A stretch of DNA of 23,268 nt, taken from IMG/VR virus record IMGVR_UViG_3300048918_000033, positions 1 through 23,268 of that record; one strand, given 5' to 3'. Below, in pieces: positions 5,886 to 22,978 of the stretch. Below the pieces are notes generated by a model. The model saw only the letters and a program-made list of their open reading frames with translations. It did not search any database and was not told the origin of the DNA. Source of the stretch: a virus. The position numbers and the translations under genes were made by a program. Each line of letters begins with the position of its first letter. Within the stretch, counting starts at the first letter, position 1.

Positions 5886-8243
5886 TTATTGGGCGCTCTG
5901 TTGTGCCTGCATCATATCTGCTGCGGCTTTCAAATCCGGGTCGTTCTTTTCCTTGGCCGTCGTCCTCAGAGCGGTGATCGTTGGACCAAGAACTGCGGTT
6001 GGCGCATTTGCCTTGGTAGCCAGAAATTTCACGAACGTTGGATTGGTCATGAGGCGACCAGCAAGATTTGCCCCACCCATTCCAGTGCCAATGGCAGCAG
6101 CAGTTCCGGGATGGCCCGTTAAAAGCGACATGACGAGCGCCCCCACCGTCCCAAGCTGAGCGCTTGCGGCTCCCGTTCCGGATGGATTGGCAAGATATTG
6201 CGAACCCTCCTTGACATTGCTAGCGACCTTGGCAATCGAGTCCATATCTTTAGAGAAACTTGGCCCGTAACGATCAAACAGAGTAGACCGGGCTTGCGGA
6301 CTCAGCTTGTTCCAATTAGTCAAAAACGTACCCATGTTGAAAGCATCACCTGACGCATTTTGCTGCCCCGGATTGGCCTTCCCAAGCCGGTTAATGACTG
6401 CTGCTGTCAGCGTCTTTTGCTGGTCCGGCTGCAAACTCTGCATGACAGACTTAAGCGTTGAGGCGCCATCCTTCGTTCCTGACATGGCAGCATTAAACAC
6501 AGCCTCGGGACCGCCATTCTTATCGACTACGCTAGAAAGCGTGTCGATCCTATTTTGACCGGCGCGATAGTAGTTGTTGGCACGATTCCATGCCTGCATG
6601 GCATCGTCACCCTGTGACTGAGCCGCGCCCTTAAGATCGCTAGAAAGAGCACCATAAAGCGCTTGCCACTTTGATCGAGGCACGTCGCTTGAAAGAGAGA
6701 AGTCACTCAGTTGATCACCAACAAGCGTCCGAAGCTTTTTGACAGCCTCATAGGGAAGCTTGTTATCCACCATGCTTGACGCGACATCTTTCATTGCCTG
6801 ATTCTTGTCGATCAATGGCTGCGGCTGGAATGTCTGCGGATTCTGAGGGGCACCAGCAGCACCACCAAGGCCAATTTGGCTCGCATTTGCTTGATCCGCT
6901 GCCGCCTGTCCAGCTCGATTAGAGGCCTGGATTTGTGCATTCTGCGCATCAATCTGAGCCGCCCTCGAAGCCATGGCCTGCTGAACGTCAGGCCTAGTCA
7001 TCGCCGCCTCAACGCTTCCAGTATCCGCTTTTAGCCCATTCTCAATGCCTAGAATCTTGGCATTCTGGAATAGCTTTGACGTGTTTGGCGCACCTTGGAT
7101 CAACGCGTTAAGTTCTGGAAGAAGCTTTTGAGTGTTACTAATACCGATACGAGTATCAGAGGGGATAAACTGATCGAGCTTGTCGTAAAGTTGGCCTGAC
7201 TGATCCTTGAATCGGTCAACAAAACCGTTGGGGCCAGTAATACCGCGAGAAATTGCTCGGCCCGCATCGCCAGTATCGACATTTGGTGCAAGCTTATTGG
7301 CCTGATTCGTCAGGCCCTCAGATACTTGATCGGCCTGCTGTTGAGCAGCCGTTTTCATCTGAGTAACAGCTCCAGGCGTTTTAGCGAGAAGTGATTCAAC
7401 GCCTCGGGCAATAGGCCCCTCCGTTGCCTGCCCAACGGTCGGCGTAGCGCCAGCATTCGCAAAGTCGGCAATATTCTGTGCTACACGCTGGCGACCAGCT
7501 GCGCCACCAACAAGGGCGGACTGCGCCACCGATCCAGCCAAGCTGGGAGCAATCGGAAGCGCACCACCAACAAGACCAGCAGCAATTTGACCAACCGGGC
7601 CAGCGCCTAGGTCTTTAGCCCCTTGTGCGGCAGATGATCCAGTGACTGCCGATGCTAGCTGCGTGCCGGGATTAGCGGCCAACGTCGAGCCAACACCAGC
7701 CACTACCGGATTGGCTGCGCCAGCAGCAATGTTGCCAACGCCGATGCCCGTCAATGTTCCGCCAATGCCACGGCTAATGGCATCGCCATAGCGCTCCCCA
7801 GCATTCTGAGGCGCGAAATCGATGTTAGGAGCAGCCTTTTGGGCGTAGTAGTCGATGGACTGTGCGCCTGTTCCTAGCTGCTGATCAGCCGGCAACACGG
7901 CATTTAGACCAGCACGGATGGGCGTCGCCAGCAGATCACCAAGGCCAATCGCACCCTCTGCCACCGCCTTACCGGTACGTACGGCTGCACGTCCAAGCTG
8001 CTCACCAAAGCTCGGAGGCTCAAGCTGGTCAGCTGTAGGCCGGACCACAATGTCATCAGGCCGGATAGCGGAAGGACCCGTCTGCTTGTCGAACTGCGCC
8101 TTAGCCTGAGTGCGCGCATTGTCGTCAGGCAGCTGAGGCGCAACGACCTGTTGAAAATACTGCTGGCGCGCCGCTTCCTGCTGCTCAGGCGGCAATGCCT
8201 GATAAGCAGGATTCTGAGTGACCTGAATCCACGACTGCGCCAT
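5886..8243 (-). CDS. Ejection (injection) protein, P22 gp16-like position
   Basis: 785 residues, third of three ejection genes, in the place of P22 gene 16 (609 aa). The N terminus (~1-60) is Gln-rich and helical. Residues ~90-270 hold long Gly/Ala-rich hydrophobic stretches (GIGGTLTGIGVGNIAAGAA, GQIAAGLVGGALPIAPSLAG) that could cross a membrane. The middle is Gln/Asn-rich helical, and ~700-745 again has small-residue hydrophobic segments. Such proteins are packed in the head and enter the cell envelope ahead of DNA to form a conduit. No enzyme motif is seen. Start ATG 8243 overlaps the upstream TAA (TAATG), with GGTGG just upstream. The family call is from position and composition. Confidence 0.75.
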   Translation of the reverse strand: MAQSWIQVTQNPAYQALPPEQQEAARQQYFQQVVAPQLPDDNARTQAKAQFDKQTGPSAIRPDDIVVRPTADQLEPPSFGEQLGRAAVRTGKAVAEGAIGLGDLLATPIRAGLNAVLPADQQLGTGAQSIDYYAQKAAPNIDFAPQNAGERYGDAISRGIGGTLTGIGVGNIAAGAANPVVAGVGSTLAANPGTQLASAVTGSSAAQGAKDLGAGPVGQIAAGLVGGALPIAPSLAGSVAQSALVGGAAGRQRVAQNIADFANAGATPTVGQATEGPIARGVESLLAKTPGAVTQMKTAAQQQADQVSEGLTNQANKLAPNVDTGDAGRAISRGITGPNGFVDRFKDQSGQLYDKLDQFIPSDTRIGISNTQKLLPELNALIQGAPNTSKLFQNAKILGIENGLKADTGSVEAAMTRPDVQQAMASRAAQIDAQNAQIQASNRAGQAAADQANASQIGLGGAAGAPQNPQTFQPQPLIDKNQAMKDVASSMVDNKLPYEAVKKLRTLVGDQLSDFSLSSDVPRSKWQALYGALSSDLKGAAQSQGDDAMQAWNRANNYYRAGQNRIDTLSSVVDKNGGPEAVFNAAMSGTKDGASTLKSVMQSLQPDQQKTLTAAVINRLGKANPGQQNASGDAFNMGTFLTNWNKLSPQARSTLFDRYGPSFSKDMDSIAKVASNVKEGSQYLANPSGTGAASAQLGTVGALVMSLLTGHPGTAAAIGTGMGGANLAGRLMTNPTFVKFLATKANAPTAVLGPTITALRTTAKEKNDPDLKAAADMMQAQQSAQ

Positions 8244-10057
8244 TAGCCGCCACCCCACAGATGCGAGAAGTCTTGCTGACCTGCGGGCGCCGTATTCTGA
8301 CCCGGAAGATTGGGCGTAGGCGCCATTTCTTGCTGAGGCGTCTGCTTGGCCGTCGTTCCGCCCTGCGTGCCATTGCCAAAGCGAGACATATTGTCCCGAA
8401 TGGCATGGAGTTGCTGAAGAGAGCCTAGGCGTTGGTTATGAACGTCATTGCGCAGAACCTGGGCAACAGTGCTGAACTGACCCTTGGATAGATCGGCACG
8501 AATGAGACTCAATGCTTCTTCCATGGTGCTCACAGGGGTACCACCAGCGCCAGTGGCGCCTGACATGATCTTGGCATAGTCAGCGGCGACCGGGATCAGG
8601 GCGGCACGAAGCGCGGCCACGTCCTGATCACCTGACTCAAACTCACCCGTTTGCAGGAATCGGTTGATTGCAGGTGAACGAGTACGGTCAACAAGATCGC
8701 TGATCTTTTGCGCTTGATCCAAGTTGTTTAGGAACGCATTTTCTTGCCCAGCCATGGCATCTGCGCGCTTCTGATAGGCGTTAAGACTTCCCTGAAGCGC
8801 CTTCTGCTGACCTCCACGAGTAGAAAGCTCAGCAGGTGTCACACCACTAGCTGCGGCCATATCTGCCGCGTGATTCATGATGGCTGTGCGCTGCGCCTGC
8901 CCCTGGCCACCTCGACCAATAGGAGGCAATACGCCAGTCAGCATGTAGTTGACCGTGGCATTTTCCAGCGCGCCAGGACTCAAGTCAGACGACTGAGCGT
9001 TGTTCATACCCGAAGCGCCCAAGACCATGCCCTGAAGTTGCTCAGAGGACGCGCCAAGCGATTTCGCCACGTCGATGCGCTGCTGCCATGAATTCGTCTT
9101 AGGGGCTGGAGTCCCAACTGCAAGACGCATGCCGGAGACACCTGCGCCACCGTTCGGGTTTTGCAGGTGCACATGATCACCCTCATCAATCGGCTGTAGG
9201 CCGCGCGCCTTGGCGTCTTGGATGAATTGGGCCTTCTGATCAGGCGGAATAACCACATCAGCAGCCGTTCCGCTCAGGTGCTGGCTATTCGGAACGCCAC
9301 CGACTTCGGCATTGTGTTCAGGCGACCGAACGCCGCTAGTGATCGTGGCGCCGTATTTGGATGAAAGATCGTTTACCGCGTTGTAGAAGTCAGGCGAAGC
9401 CATGCCATTAGCAGGAGTGCCAGAGCCACCAAGCGAAACAATCGACCCCTGACCACCGCCATGCGGGTTAACAGCCACGAGGGCTTTCTCGCCATTCGGG
9501 CCAATCGGAGCCTGATAGAACTTGTCGCCTGCCTGATTATTGTAAAGGACTGCGCCGGTATCCTTGTTGGCTAGTACCGATCCAGGGGTGAGCGTGGTCG
9601 AATTGACCGGAAGGCTTGCAAGATGTGCCTTGACTGCCTGGAATCCAGGCTGTGCCGCATTCACATCCTCGGGAACCTGCGAGATATCTACGCCACCCAA
9701 CTGAGCAAAGTAGGGACGCGCTTGCGCCCAGGCCGCCTGCTTGGCTTGCGGAGTCGTTTGGCTTTCCACGAAGTTAATAGCGCCGTTCATGCGACGATAT
9801 TTGGCATCATCAACGCCCTGAAGCGCCGTCGCCTTATCCGGATCGATAGCTGCTAACTGCTGGTAAGCAGACTGATCGCCCGCAACGACCTGAGGCGCCA
9901 ATCCTCGTGCGGTCTGCTGATCAGTTTGAGCCTGCTGAGCCTGCTGCAATGCAATATTGCCCATGGCGTTCTGGCGAGCCGTCTGGACGCCTTGCTGCAC
10001 CGCATTAACGATATTGGGCTGCTGAAGCGCTCCGGCCACATCATAGATATTGGCCAT
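8243..10057 (-). CDS. Ejection protein with M15-type peptidase domain, P22 gp20 position
   Basis: 604 residues. The N-terminal ~130 residues are Gln/Ala-rich and helical. At ~220-300 lies a peptidase M15 (VanX/D-Ala-D-Ala carboxypeptidase-like) domain: TSGVRSPEHN, SQHLSGTAADVV with His260 and Asp267 as probable zinc ligands, and DEGDHVHLQ with Asp294 and His297 near the active site. The remaining ~300 residues are helical with no recognised domain. In P22 this position holds a non-enzymatic ejection protein. Here it would be carried in the virion and trim peptidoglycan cross-links during DNA entry. Start and stop are shared with both neighbours as TAATG, so the three ejection genes are translationally linked. 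Confidence 0.85.
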   Translation of the reverse strand: MANIYDVAGALQQPNIVNAVQQGVQTARQNAMGNIALQQAQQAQTDQQTARGLAPQVVAGDQSAYQQLAAIDPDKATALQGVDDAKYRRMNGAINFVESQTTPQAKQAAWAQARPYFAQLGGVDISQVPEDVNAAQPGFQAVKAHLASLPVNSTTLTPGSVLANKDTGAVLYNNQAGDKFYQAPIGPNGEKALVAVNPHGGGQGSIVSLGGSGTPANGMASPDFYNAVNDLSSKYGATITSGVRSPEHNAEVGGVPNSQHLSGTAADVVIPPDQKAQFIQDAKARGLQPIDEGDHVHLQNPNGGAGVSGMRLAVGTPAPKTNSWQQRIDVAKSLGASSEQLQGMVLGASGMNNAQSSDLSPGALENATVNYMLTGVLPPIGRGGQGQAQRTAIMNHAADMAAASGVTPAELSTRGGQQKALQGSLNAYQKRADAMAGQENAFLNNLDQAQKISDLVDRTRSPAINRFLQTGEFESGDQDVAALRAALIPVAADYAKIMSGATGAGGTPVSTMEEALSLIRADLSKGQFSTVAQVLRNDVHNQRLGSLQQLHAIRDNMSRFGNGTQGGTTAKQTPQQEMAPTPNLPGQNTAPAGQQDFSHLWGGG

Positions 10058-10713
10058 TAGTAGCCTCCACTCGCCGTCGCGAAGTTAAATGCGCCACTGG
10101 CTGGCGTGGAACTGCCAAGGCTTCCATAGCTGTTGATGTTGCCGCCAAGGGAATAGCTGCTAGTCGATCCACCGGCAGGAATAGGATTCTGCCCGTAAAG
10201 CTGACCAAGCTGACCCAGAACGTTTCCATAGGCATTTGCTTGCCCGACCGTCCCGGAAGCCTGAGCCTGCCCGGAGTTCTGTAGGTATCCGCCTACAGAG
10301 TTGGCGTTGTTCTGGCCGAAGTTAGCCAGCGAAGTAGCTGCACCCAAGCCGGTATTAGCCAACCCCGAAATCTTGTTCCAGTAGTTGTTGGCGTATTGCG
10401 TGGCGAGGCCCTGGCCCAAGGAAATGCGGTCAGCATCAGCACCTCCACCCCAAAGGTTGCCCTTAGAGGCTGCGCCAGCGTCAAGCGACTTGGTGCCCTG
10501 CTGCACGGCGAACTGATAGTCCGGCGAATTGGTGAAACCTGACGTGTCGCCGTTTAGATAGGCCTGCTGAAGGTTAAGCGCGTTCGCCCCAGCTCCCATA
10601 TAGGGGCTTAGGTTCGTTTGAGCCTGTTGATAGCGCTGATTCTCTGCGGCAATCGCGGCGTTATTGGCCTTTGACTGTGCATCAGCCGCATCGCTTGCGG
10701 CATTCGCGCTCAT
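10057..10713 (-). CDS. Ejection protein, P22 gp7 position; N terminus interrupted by in-frame TGA
   Basis: The uninterrupted frame gives 218 residues, rich in Ala, Gln, Asn, Gly and Ser (QRYQQAQTNLSPYMGAGANAL..., YWNKISGLANTG..., ending in a Gly/Ser tail), typical of the small virion ejection proteins next to gp20-like genes. P22 gp7 has 229. The same frame continues 27 codons upstream to ATG 10794, which overlaps the endonuclease stop (TAATG) and has GGAGG 7 bases before it. That extension carries TGA at 10773-10771 (codon 8), followed by a hydrophobic LAEIWGAAIIAGGAVASGV stretch that this protein type normally has at its N terminus. Boundaries here use ATG 10713, a conservative choice with no ribosome site of its own. 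The full frame would be 10057-10794, 245 codons including the TGA. Confidence 0.75.
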   Translation of the reverse strand: MSANAASDAADAQSKANNAAIAAENQRYQQAQTNLSPYMGAGANALNLQQAYLNGDTSGFTNSPDYQFAVQQGTKSLDAGAASKGNLWGGGADADRISLGQGLATQYANNYWNKISGLANTGLGAATSLANFGQNNANSVGGYLQNSGQAQASGTVGQANAYGNVLGQLGQLYGQNPIPAGGSTSSYSLGGNINSYGSLGSSTPASGAFNFATASGGY

Positions 10714-10770
10714 AACTCCACTGGCTACAGCGCCGCCTGCGATGATTGCGGCGCCCCAAATTTCCGCCAG

Positions 10771-10794
10771 TCAGCCTACATTCATAATTTTCAT
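10771..10794 (-). other. Seven-codon leader (MKIMNVG) ending at in-frame TGA
   Basis: ATG 10794 lies 7 bases after a consensus GGAGG (10806-10802, within the end of the endonuclease gene) and overlaps its TAA. Translation from here would stop after seven codons at TGA 10773-10771, in the same frame as the downstream ejection gene. It is either the true start of that gene interrupted by a stop, or a leader peptide followed by re-initiation. Confidence 0.6.
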
Positions 10795-11291
10795 TATGAA
10801 GCCTCCGTATAGGTCCAGCGGAGTCCGCCAGCTTGTTGATATTTCCCAGCCAATGCCATTCGCAGAGTCTTTCGATCTACGCCATGTTTTCGCTGAGCCT
10901 CAATCTGAGTAAGGAACACTTCGCCAGTGTCTAAACACATGAAAGGCTTGGCCCATCGCCGAGTCTGGCCTTCCTTGATGCGTCGATACGTTGTTTCTAG
11001 ATCGCGGTTGTGATGCTGCTCAGTAAAAGTCGCAACACGGCAATTGTCGGGCGAATAGCCCTTTGAATTGTCGATGCGATCAATCGTCAGGCCACGCTTC
11101 CAGCCATTATCAAGGAAAAACTGAGCGAAGTTAGGCCACCAAAGCCACTCTTCGCAAACTCGAATTCCCTTGTCGTAATAGCGGTGAGAATCTTCCCGAT
11201 CCATCGGTGAGCAACGCCGAAGCATGGCGCGCCAAACAAGATAAAGATGCGGATGCTTCGTGACGAAATACTGCGAAGGATATTTGTTCAT
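10794..11291 (-). CDS. HNH-type homing endonuclease
   Basis: 165 residues. The central block is the typical phage HNH homing-enzyme pattern: LVWRAMLRRC, YYDKGIRVCEEW, a WPNFAQFFLD helix, then LTIDRIDNSKGYSPDNCRVAT and EQHHNR. Asp71, Asn74 and Asn83 are placed as in the catalytic and folding core of this group. The last ~45 residues (CLDTGEVFLTQIEAQRKHGVDRKTLRMAL) form a likely DNA-binding helix-turn-helix, as in NUMOD-type modules. Start ATG 11291 makes an ATGA overlap with the oxygenase-like gene and has GGGGAG upstream; ATG 11336 is an alternative. No intron or intein is seen, so it would be free-standing. It sits exactly where the tail genes switch to ejection genes. Confidence 0.85.
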   Translation of the reverse strand: MNKYPSQYFVTKHPHLYLVWRAMLRRCSPMDREDSHRYYDKGIRVCEEWLWWPNFAQFFLDNGWKRGLTIDRIDNSKGYSPDNCRVATFTEQHHNRDLETTYRRIKEGQTRRWAKPFMCLDTGEVFLTQIEAQRKHGVDRKTLRMALAGKYQQAGGLRWTYTEAS

Positions 11292-11896
11292 AACAGCTCC
11301 CCATTGGGTCCGAGTTTGTAGAAATGGCTTACCCATACCATTCTACCACTCTCTGGGGAGTTGCCAATACCATCCAGCGGATAGCGAGAATGAAACAGCG
11401 GCGCTTGGAAGATCAGTGCCCGGTTGTACTCACCTCGCACATAGTCTAGCTGTACCCACTTATCGGGGTCTCGCGAAACCATGTCCTCTTTCAGTTCGTC
11501 CAGAATGCCTTGATCATGCATTTCTGCGAACGAAGGCATCGTCTTGAGGCCAGTTCTCTTGTGCATGTAGAAGGCGGTTCCGCTATAGTCGCCATGCTCA
11601 GTCAGATAGGCAACACAGGTATGGTTGCCGGACTCGCGATCACTGTGGATATAGGCCTTTTCCATGCCGACATTGGTCGAGCGGAAAAACATGGAGTTTG
11701 GGACCACGATCCCGCCCATGGCGCGCATCAGTGCAGAGACCATGAGCGAGTGATCGCCCCAAAAGCCCATGCCTTCGTAGATGGAGCTTCCAACCTCACC
11801 TTTGTTGGGTAGCCACGTGCCAATGCCAGCGGCAAGCGCTGACTGGCGTACCCTTTCCGGGTCATGGCAGAAGTTGTCAATGACGAGATAACTCAT
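11288..11896 (-). CDS. Fe(II)/2-oxoglutarate oxygenase-like protein (DUF6445-like)
   Basis: 202 residues. It shows the marks of the double-stranded beta-helix Fe(II)/2OG oxygenase fold: an iron-binding H84-x-D86 in YIHSDRES, a CVAYLTE strand, GTAFYMHKRTG, a distal His169 in LFHSRYP, and Arg185 in GRMVWVSHF as the likely 2-oxoglutarate contact. Proteins with this layout (DUF6445 and relatives) occur in marine bacteria and phages; their substrate is not known to me. It is coupled to the gp10-like gene (ATGA) and to the endonuclease (ATGA), so it is made with the tail proteins. A role in modifying a virion protein is possible but not shown. Confidence 0.7.
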   Translation of the reverse strand: MSYLVIDNFCHDPERVRQSALAAGIGTWLPNKGEVGSSIYEGMGFWGDHSLMVSALMRAMGGIVVPNSMFFRSTNVGMEKAYIHSDRESGNHTCVAYLTEHGDYSGTAFYMHKRTGLKTMPSFAEMHDQGILDELKEDMVSRDPDKWVQLDYVRGEYNRALIFQAPLFHSRYPLDGIGNSPESGRMVWVSHFYKLGPNGELL

Positions 11897-21185: not shown

Positions 21186-22295
21186 CTAGACATTTGCCGT
21201 CAGGATATAAGGTCCGTTAGACACGGGATAGTTTGCCGTAGGGTACAACGGGGTATCCAGCACCGTGAACGAGAACTCAGCGTTGTAGACCTCATCGTTA
21301 TCCAGCGTCACGGTAGCGAGCAAACCGCCGCAGCCTGAGAAATTGAATGTCACGTCTACCATTGTCTCGCGCTGGCCAGCAGCAATCCTAGCGTTAGACA
21401 TGAGAATAGCCCACGGGCTTGTCGTCTCCCATCTAACGGAGACGATTGACCGATCTTTCGGGATAGCACCATTGAAGTTCGCCACCACACACCGCTTAGC
21501 CATTCGCCGAACGCGAGCGACATTAACCCTCGAAAGGTTGTAGCCAGTGACGTAGGTCCGGGTCGTTCGCCCAAGTTCTTGGCATGGCTCGTCCAAGGGA
21601 GGCACCACCTGATTCACGGTAATGGAGACAGTGGCGATATTGGAATCAACGCCGTCAACAGTGGCTTGATACGTGAACGAGTCATTCCCGAAAAAGTCTT
21701 CGTCAGGCTCGTAAACCAACGATACGCCATCTACCGAAGCTACACCATTGGATGCAGGCGAGATGATGGCCAGGGAATCAGGGGTTACAGGATCTCCATC
21801 ACTGGTAATGGCCGGAGTCACCTCAATAGGAGGGTCGTTCTCGTCCATCGTCTCGAAAAGGTCCGGGGAAACAATGGATGCCTGAAGAGGGAAGAGACGG
21901 ATTTGACCCACATAGCTTAAGGCTGGCCCTGTATCGGTCGGACCTGAACAAGCATAGATGGCCGGAATAACCCCGGCGCTCAATTCGTAGTCGATGGTTG
22001 GTCCGGAAGCGCCCGTATACGGCCCAAAGGACTGCAACAAGACATCCCCGGTCAGATTTACCACGTTAAGGTAGAACGGATCGCCATCGAAAGGAGGCGG
22101 ATCATCGGTAAACGTCGCATCGAAGGACAGAGTATCGCCATCTGAGGCTGGAATTTGATACTCCAATCCCATCTGGTCGAATACCGGGCCATCCGAAAAG
22201 TTGTAGGTATACGCGTCGCCATCCCAAGCATCGGTCGGAAGGCTGCTATTGAAGTAGTCCTTCCAATTGGCGTTATCCAACATCAAGTTGCTCAT
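21186..22295 (-). CDS. Ig-fold (Big_9/cadherin-like) virion-associated protein, putative
   Basis: 369 residues with no signal peptide or membrane span, very acidic in its first half. Residues ~145-228 (ITSDGDPVTPDSLAI, SNGVASVDG, VYEPDEDFFGNDSFTYQATV, NIATVSITVN) match the bacterial Ig-like 'tandem-95' domain (Big_9). Residues ~255-350 (VRRMAKRCVVANFNGAIP, VSVRWETTSPWAILMS, DVTFNFSGCGG) form a second all-beta domain that looks Ig-like. The first ~140 residues are also beta-rich. Ig domains on phage proteins usually decorate heads or tails and bind carbohydrate weakly. Its ATG overlaps the glycosyltransferase stop (ATGA), so the two are made together. It may be a surface decoration, and possibly the enzyme's target; both are inferences. 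Confidence 0.7.
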   Translation of the reverse strand: MSNLMLDNANWKDYFNSSLPTDAWDGDAYTYNFSDGPVFDQMGLEYQIPASDGDTLSFDATFTDDPPPFDGDPFYLNVVNLTGDVLLQSFGPYTGASGPTIDYELSAGVIPAIYACSGPTDTGPALSYVGQIRLFPLQASIVSPDLFETMDENDPPIEVTPAITSDGDPVTPDSLAIISPASNGVASVDGVSLVYEPDEDFFGNDSFTYQATVDGVDSNIATVSITVNQVVPPLDEPCQELGRTTRTYVTGYNLSRVNVARVRRMAKRCVVANFNGAIPKDRSIVSVRWETTSPWAILMSNARIAAGQRETMVDVTFNFSGCGGLLATVTLDNDEVYNAEFSFTVLDTPLYPTANYPVSNGPYILTANV

Positions 22296-22978
22296 AGCGC
22301 CCGCTCGATAGATGCCAGAACTTGGCTTGGCGTGATGTCGGATACTTCATCCGCCTGGATGCAGTGGCTTGGATTCCAGAAGGGCGCAAAAGTGGCCATC
22401 TTGGTTATCCCGTACAGGCCTACCACAGGCACGCCCATGGCATCGGCCATATGGACAGCGCCCGTGTCAGGACTGACCACGCAAGCAGCGTCTAGGAAGT
22501 AATCAGGCCATGTGCTCGGCGAGCATTGACCAATCCTGTTATCGATTCCTTCCTCCTGGCCAATCGGCTCAAGAGTGCTCAAGGCGCGTTGAGGACCGAT
22601 AACTCGAACCTTACGACAAGCTTTCAACAGCTCATAGGCAAGGAAAATCCAATGCATGATGGGCCATCGCTTTTCATATCTATCAGCCCAAGGAGAGAGA
22701 ACGATCACGTCGCCTTTACCTTGAGCGAAAGGTACGCGAACTGGATCAACGCCGAAATGTCTGATCCACGCATGAGTTCGATGGACGCCCCGGTAATCCG
22801 GCACTGCTCGTTTCGGTGCCGAGCTGACAAACTTGACCGCCTCAGACTTCACGCAATCGCTATAGACGCGCTTTGCGATGATTGCCGCATCCTCACCTAT
22901 AGCCAGAAGACCGCCAAGCGCTGGAAGCGCCATGAGGATGTCTCCGGTGTGCTGGGAATGGAGATCAAGTCCGATCAC
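22292..22978 (-). CDS. Glycosyltransferase family 9 (heptosyltransferase-like)
   Basis: 228 residues. The N terminus HTGDILMALPALGGL is the GT9 loop near the acceptor. VIVLSPWA, EKRWPIMHWIFLAYELL and VRVIGPQ lead to CSPSTWPDYFLDAACVVSPDTGAVHMADAMGVPVVGLYGIT, the hallmark GT9 nucleotide-sugar site (SPDTGAVH, residues 169-176). At 228 residues it is short: the usual heptosyltransferases are about 320-350, and most of the N-terminal domain is reduced. GTG 22978 is the start, with AAGG just upstream and 6 bases after the preceding stop. Bacterial relatives add heptose to LPS core. Here the target could be LPS or a phage protein. Confidence 0.8.
   Translation of the reverse strand: MIGLDLHSQHTGDILMALPALGGLLAIGEDAAIIAKRVYSDCVKSEAVKFVSSAPKRAVPDYRGVHRTHAWIRHFGVDPVRVPFAQGKGDVIVLSPWADRYEKRWPIMHWIFLAYELLKACRKVRVIGPQRALSTLEPIGQEEGIDNRIGQCSPSTWPDYFLDAACVVSPDTGAVHMADAMGVPVVGLYGITKMATFAPFWNPSHCIQADEVSDITPSQVLASIERAL

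Follow-up and report, generated by a model that had tools for sequence, protein, structure and literature searches.

The DNA ejection gene of this virus probably starts at a CTG codon (10768..10770, minus strand) lying directly behind an in-frame TGA, at a site where a homing endonuclease gene has taken the place of the usual ribosome-binding site (RBS) and ATG. The window, i.e., the whole stretch of 23,268 bases making up an IMG/VR virus record, is best explained, and in our judgment probably so, by translation starting at CTG 10770 to give (f)Met-AEIWGAAIIAGG..., through initiation bridged by an RNA hairpin and/or a hand-over of ribosomes from a short leader ORF. The TGA is real, lies just before the ejection gene and ends this leader. 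The initial annotation had reported a GGAGG at 10806-10802, an ATG at 10794, the TGA at 10773-10771, the CTG at 10770 and an ATG at 10713, all of which are present, and had listed several ways of reaching the ejection frame: among these the readthrough reading is rejected, while re-initiation or a rare start at the CTG behind a seven-codon leader is the option that the evidence supports and to which a cause can now be given. What had been missed is that the CTG falls exactly at the start codon of the relatives and that the link with the endonuclease is causal, the insertion having replaced RBS and ATG.

The virion genes of the window, on the minus strand, form a P22-like set (terminase, portal, P22-type coat, tail accessory factor and head-closure protein). 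A gene with profile matches to DUF6445 and PHROG 1644 (annotated as minor coat protein; 11288..11896) is followed by the HNH endonuclease gene (10794..11291; PHROG HNH matches, E 1e-27), whose ATG overlaps the DUF6445 stop codon and which sits immediately upstream of the ejection ORF. The last HNH codons (T-E-A-S) contain the Shine-Dalgarno (SD) motif GGAGG (10802..10806), and the endonuclease TAA shares one base with the leader ATG 10794 (TAATG). From there the minus strand reads ATG AAA ATT ATG AAT GTA GGC TGA, the seven-codon leader MKIMNVG* (10771..10794), and then CTG GCG GAA ATT TGG GGC. These last codons share the frame of the ejection ORF, whose end is at 10057; the gene would span 10057..10770, with the putative N terminus M-A-E-I-W-G-A-A-I-I-A-G-G. 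The PHROG 598 'DNA ejection' match (E 4e-40) extends over residues 10-230 of the version translated through the TGA, so that the part behind this stop is family sequence. The window sequence holds no in-frame ATG, GTG or TTG between the TGA and the ATG formerly called as start (10711..10713). When the window is compared with the related record L033, the block comprising SD, hairpin, leader, start and first codons (10751..10807) ranks first for conservation among 4138 stretches of 57 columns, with 54/57 positions identical where the mean is 69%; this segment appears to be under constraint, or to have been so until recently. Elsewhere in the window, the internal protein encoded by the next virion gene (8243-10057) has a domain of the Peptidase M15 family (PF08291, E 7e-12) that likely cuts cell walls, a glycosyltransferase family 9 (heptosyltransferase-like) protein is encoded at 22292-22978, near the record end and adjoining the virion genes, and a small ORF on the strand opposite the virion genes (99-371, +) resembles, on visual inspection, the C-terminal portion of a further HNH-type endonuclease.

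Relatives were gathered with the upstream DUF6445 gene as bait. Comparing homologues upstream of position 10713, as the initial annotation had proposed, places the beginning of the relatives' proteins 19 residues earlier, at the CTG position. In the 15 relatives devoid of the HNH gene, an SD is followed by ATG or GTG and then GCN GAR ATH TGG (M-A-E-I-W); CTG GCG GAA ATT TGG of the window aligns with this codon for codon, which puts CTG 10770 at the start-codon position. The endonuclease cassette or its scar is found in four loci: the window; L005-L009, five IMG/VR records of a single lineage; L036, with an HNH gene at the same site 69% identical to that of the window; and L114, whose HNH gene there is about 50% identical to it. 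The codon at the start position is CTG, CTG, GTC and ATC, respectively, so that the canonical start is lost in all of them; it is non-canonical in 4/4 cassette or scar loci versus 0/15 others (Fisher 1/3876, kinship not corrected). A natural filled and empty pair is provided by L114 and L116, the flanks of which are ~98% identical on both sides: the empty L116 reads GTTGGCAGGTATCAACA ATG GCT GAG ATA TGG and the filled L114 reads GTTGGC...(HNH)...GAACATCG ATC GCT GAG ATA TGG, the ATG having given way to ATC directly before GCT GAG ATA TGG. The insertion point lies exactly between codons 1 and 2 of the ejection gene. In the ejection-protein tree the window groups with L005, L036 is sister to the endonuclease-free L047, and L114 is sister to L043, L097, L122, and L123, all endonuclease-free; cassette status must therefore have changed at least three times.

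A single substitution would turn CTG, ATC, or GTC into ATG or GTG, and it counts against the CTG start that ATG, one such change away in the window and in L114, is found in neither. CUG and AUC are weak initiator codons; to our knowledge, GUC is not an accepted one, and the GTC of L036 points either to initiation set by position, or to weak expression, or to an assembly error. We also considered AUU/AUA at residue 4 as the start and discarded it: Ala-Glu at residues 2-3 persist, their codons having changed synonymously, and the ATA goes back to the empty allele L116.

The element shared by the four loci consists of an invariant GGAGG in the last endonuclease codons or their remnant, a hairpin capped by a GAAA tetraloop, and 8-10 nt leading to the start codon. 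The hairpin TTCATAAT-GAAA-ATTATGAA (10781..10800 in the window) is common to the window and L005, while L036 has CATCGCCAT-GAAA-ATGCCGATG with one C.C mismatch and L114 has TCGCTGT-GAAA-ACCGCGA with one mismatch. Compensatory changes affect 5 of the 8 pairs and one-sided changes none; the covariation score is reached by 0/500 shuffles and the signal is destroyed when the arms are slid. Taken alone, each hairpin is the minimum-energy fold of its segment (z of -5.6 for the window, -2.5 and -2.8), and in longer contexts those of L036 and L114 face competing folds. A covariance model search recovered the full element in cassette or scar loci only, the element being known from four distinct sequences only. 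By hand count, the SD lies 31, 31, 30, and 29 nt from the start codon (window, L005, L036, L114), beyond normal spacing, and subtracting the hairpin leaves 11, 11, 8, and 11 nt, a predicted return to functional spacing as in a split RBS. Because the start codon is not AUG (CTG, CTG, GTC, ATC), we say that the element works like a split RBS rather than file it as a member of that class.

From these features the following course of events may be proposed. An HNH gene entered immediately in front of codon 2 and displaced the RBS and ATG of the ejection gene, and the tail of the insertion would itself rescue translation by means of the strong GGAGG inside the last endonuclease codons. The 30S subunit would bind this GGAGG, and the tetraloop hairpin would bridge the gap, leaving 11 instead of 31 nt between SD and CTG, so that the near-cognate CTG would sit in the P site and serve as start codon. 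Were the hairpin open, ribosomes could start at the leader ATG, stop exactly at the CTG and re-initiate there. That ribosomes initiate at the CTG, and how efficiently, we infer from sequence comparison, and between the two routes we lean moderately towards direct, hairpin-bridged initiation.

A less likely though still plausible version of these events would have translation always start at ATG 10794, make MKIMNVG, stop at the TGA and restart at the CTG, the hairpin merely tuning the leader. Ribosomes can be brought to a coupled gene by a short ORF lying upstream of it (review PMC12548453), and SD-less re-initiation is weak but real (PMC2268962). In all lineages GGAGG stands 7 nt from an RTG, the first codon of the leader shares bases with the HNH stop codon (TAATG, ATGA, GTGA), and this short ORF runs for seven to nine codons (MKIMNVG* in the window, MKIMNAS* in L005-L009, MKMPMTS* in L036, MKTAMNIDR* in L114). 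The leader stop lies at the ejection start in all four loci (0, 0, -1 nt, and 2 nt past the start codon), within a few nucleotides of it in three different frames (0, 0, -1, +1 relative to the ejection gene, in the same order). As the frame differs in this way, fresh initiation is needed, and neither readthrough nor frameshifting can be the common route. Against an obligatory leader, however, the folded hairpin buries its ATG in stem and loop, conservation of RTGAAAA is fully accounted for by the tetraloop with its closing pairs, and the leader peptides are not conserved. Going beyond the bridged CTG start itself, it is tempting to speculate that the endonuclease carries a portable RNA start device with which position rather than identity picks the first codon (CUG, AUC, even GUC), and that loss of the ATG also protects the carrier's own site from its endonuclease; we hold this broader proposal to be rather unlikely.

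Whether translation could instead begin at ATG 10713, with the upstream frame dead, depends on the 18 codons in between. Within codons 2-19 (AEIWGAAIIAGGAVASGV), third positions account for most of the variation between cassette lineages: differences at codon positions 1, 2, and 3 number 3, 3, and 9 between window and L005, 4, 1, and 13 between window and L036, and 3, 3, and 12 between window and L114, with amino-acid identity above a random-substitution null at P 0.001, 0.0002, and 0.003, respectively. This pattern indicates that the 18 codons evolve as coding sequence and hence are translated. Because window and L005 share the cassette tail, at least part of the constraint acted after the insertion, unless the tail was recently exchanged; some of the synonymous divergence may be older than the insertions. 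ATG 10713 is the first canonical in-frame start. Nonetheless, with protein-level constraint upstream of it, with relatives starting 19 residues earlier, with this Met internal also in the ATG-started relatives L039, L041, and L047, and with the ATG absent at that position from L114 (CTT) and L038 (ATT), a start at 10713 seems very unlikely. Of the claim that the N terminus includes a hydrophobic stretch upstream of 10713, two parts hold: this stretch exists and is translated, and the gene does not truly begin at ATG 10713. The part that fails is that the stretch could be reached only through the stop.

Programmed readthrough, which would yield MKIMNVG-x-LAEIWG, with Trp proposed for the UGA, is somewhat less probable still. 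Leader and gene do share a frame in the window and in L005-L009, and in both a C follows the stop. Yet L005-L009 read ATG AAA ATT ATG AAT GCA AGC TAA CTG GCG GAA ATT TGG, with TAA instead of TGA, the leaders of L036 and L114 lie in other frames and leave no conserved in-frame continuation across the stop, and the position is that of the relatives' start codon. The TAA at the same place in a related lineage likewise disposes of TGA recoding. Entry by frameshifting at the slippery AAATTTG was set aside since the shift needed differs between lineages. Coding in frame +1 (RRLHNENYEC[RK]LTGGNLGR, with two of the three window/L005 differences synonymous) was also dropped, this frame having no start and being lost in L036 and L114.

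The history of the insertion can be followed further in L005-L009, whose ejection protein is 59% identical to that of the window and where an endonuclease gene survives as its two ends, MNK from the first three codons and EAS from the last, the body being gone. Everything from CGGAGG on is retained, i.e., exactly the RBS tail, and across 10807-10751 this lineage differs from the window at 3 bases. The ejection protein of the window is a mosaic, with residues 1-60 like the AEIWG type (L036, L047) and those from 61 onward like L002 (75-89% up to residue 150), whose own protein begins M-P-W (MPWG type) and where other genes replace DUF6445. The mosaic is suggestive of flanks co-converted in the course of homing, as homing endonucleases are known to cause (PMC2988022). 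The L005 ejection protein shows a similar mosaic switch. A nucleotide-level phage DNA search with the window gave no match and a single-sequence HNH scan no matches; an HNH alignment scan matched L036 alone, and a degenerate HNH-tail pattern the known lineages only, plus chance matches (L128-L131). In L036, 107 nt between the DUF6445 and HNH genes (L036:3110-3216), a region lacking in the window, hold a hairpin (CCCC-AGATGT-GGGG) together with a GATAAT box and may include a promoter of the HNH gene.

An insertion exactly between codons 1 and 2, with an ATG at its left edge in the window and L114, also brings to mind an endonuclease segment spliced from the mRNA as an intron, or bypassed, joining the upstream ATG to codon 2; T4 gene 60 does pair an HNH gene with bypass (PMC3014915). 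Searching Rfam at E up to 5 revealed neither a group I nor a group II intron, the HNH ORF fills almost the whole insert with only about 25 nt behind it, and inspection of the four loci by eye found no matched take-off and landing codons, landing before AEIWG, common to the lineages: candidate pairs GGC..GGC, ATT..ATT and ATC G ATC each suit at most one. We give splicing or bypass slightly less credit than readthrough. The HNH protein, matched by PHROG profiles and accompanied by neither intron nor intein, resembles a free-standing endonuclease, with filled and empty alleles at one site in L114 and L116. Lastly, although the window is a single record, a nonsense mutation or an assembly error turning TGG into TGA is practically negligible, five related records (L005-L009) keeping a stop at the same position as a different codon and the relatives having neither Trp nor upstream sequence there.

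If the hairpin-bridged CTG start is correct, the cassette would represent a translation-level counterpart of a strategy, already known, that makes selfish endonuclease genes hard to delete: the invaded virion gene would depend on the last codons of its invader. L005-L009 lost the body and kept the exact RBS tail. These loci would offer natural, repeated non-AUG starts in a conserved structural gene, the 98% identical filled and empty pair lending itself to a clean experiment, and automatic annotation would place the ejection start at the wrong codon in these genomes.

Several known systems resemble this arrangement in part. In T4 genes 25 and 38, a hairpin cuts the SD spacing from 27 to 11 nt and from 22 to 5 nt, respectively, and the gene 25 structure was shown to promote translation (review PMC3014915, citing Nivinskas 1999 and Malys & Nivinskas 2009). 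As in those genes, a distant SD would here be brought near the start by a hairpin (predicted, 31 to 11, 30 to 8, and 29 to 11 nt), whereas here the start is not AUG, the SD lies within a mobile endonuclease gene, the phage is of an unrelated type and the structure has apparently moved together with the endonuclease. Like the free-standing phage HNH endonucleases encoded by mob genes, the present gene is intergenic, with presence and absence alleles and mosaic flanks resembling co-conversion; examples from T4 hold promoters of the downstream gene within the endonuclease gene, favouring retention (PMC2988022), while here it is the downstream RBS that lies inside the endonuclease gene, and the canonical start is lost. 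With the T4 mobA/gene 60 bypass it shares an HNH gene adjoining a brief untranslated segment of an essential gene, together with a hairpin capped by a tetraloop and a stop codon in frame; it lacks the take-off and landing codon pair, and the gene is entered at its start instead of being bridged inside. The leader recalls short-upstream-ORF coupling (PMC12548453), being a short ORF with its own SD that ends at the next start codon, and departs from it in that the restart codon is not AUG and a conserved hairpin covers the start of the leader. Split RBS and expression signals borne by endonucleases were both known already, and the cassette described here appears, from its sequence, to be a variant of both.
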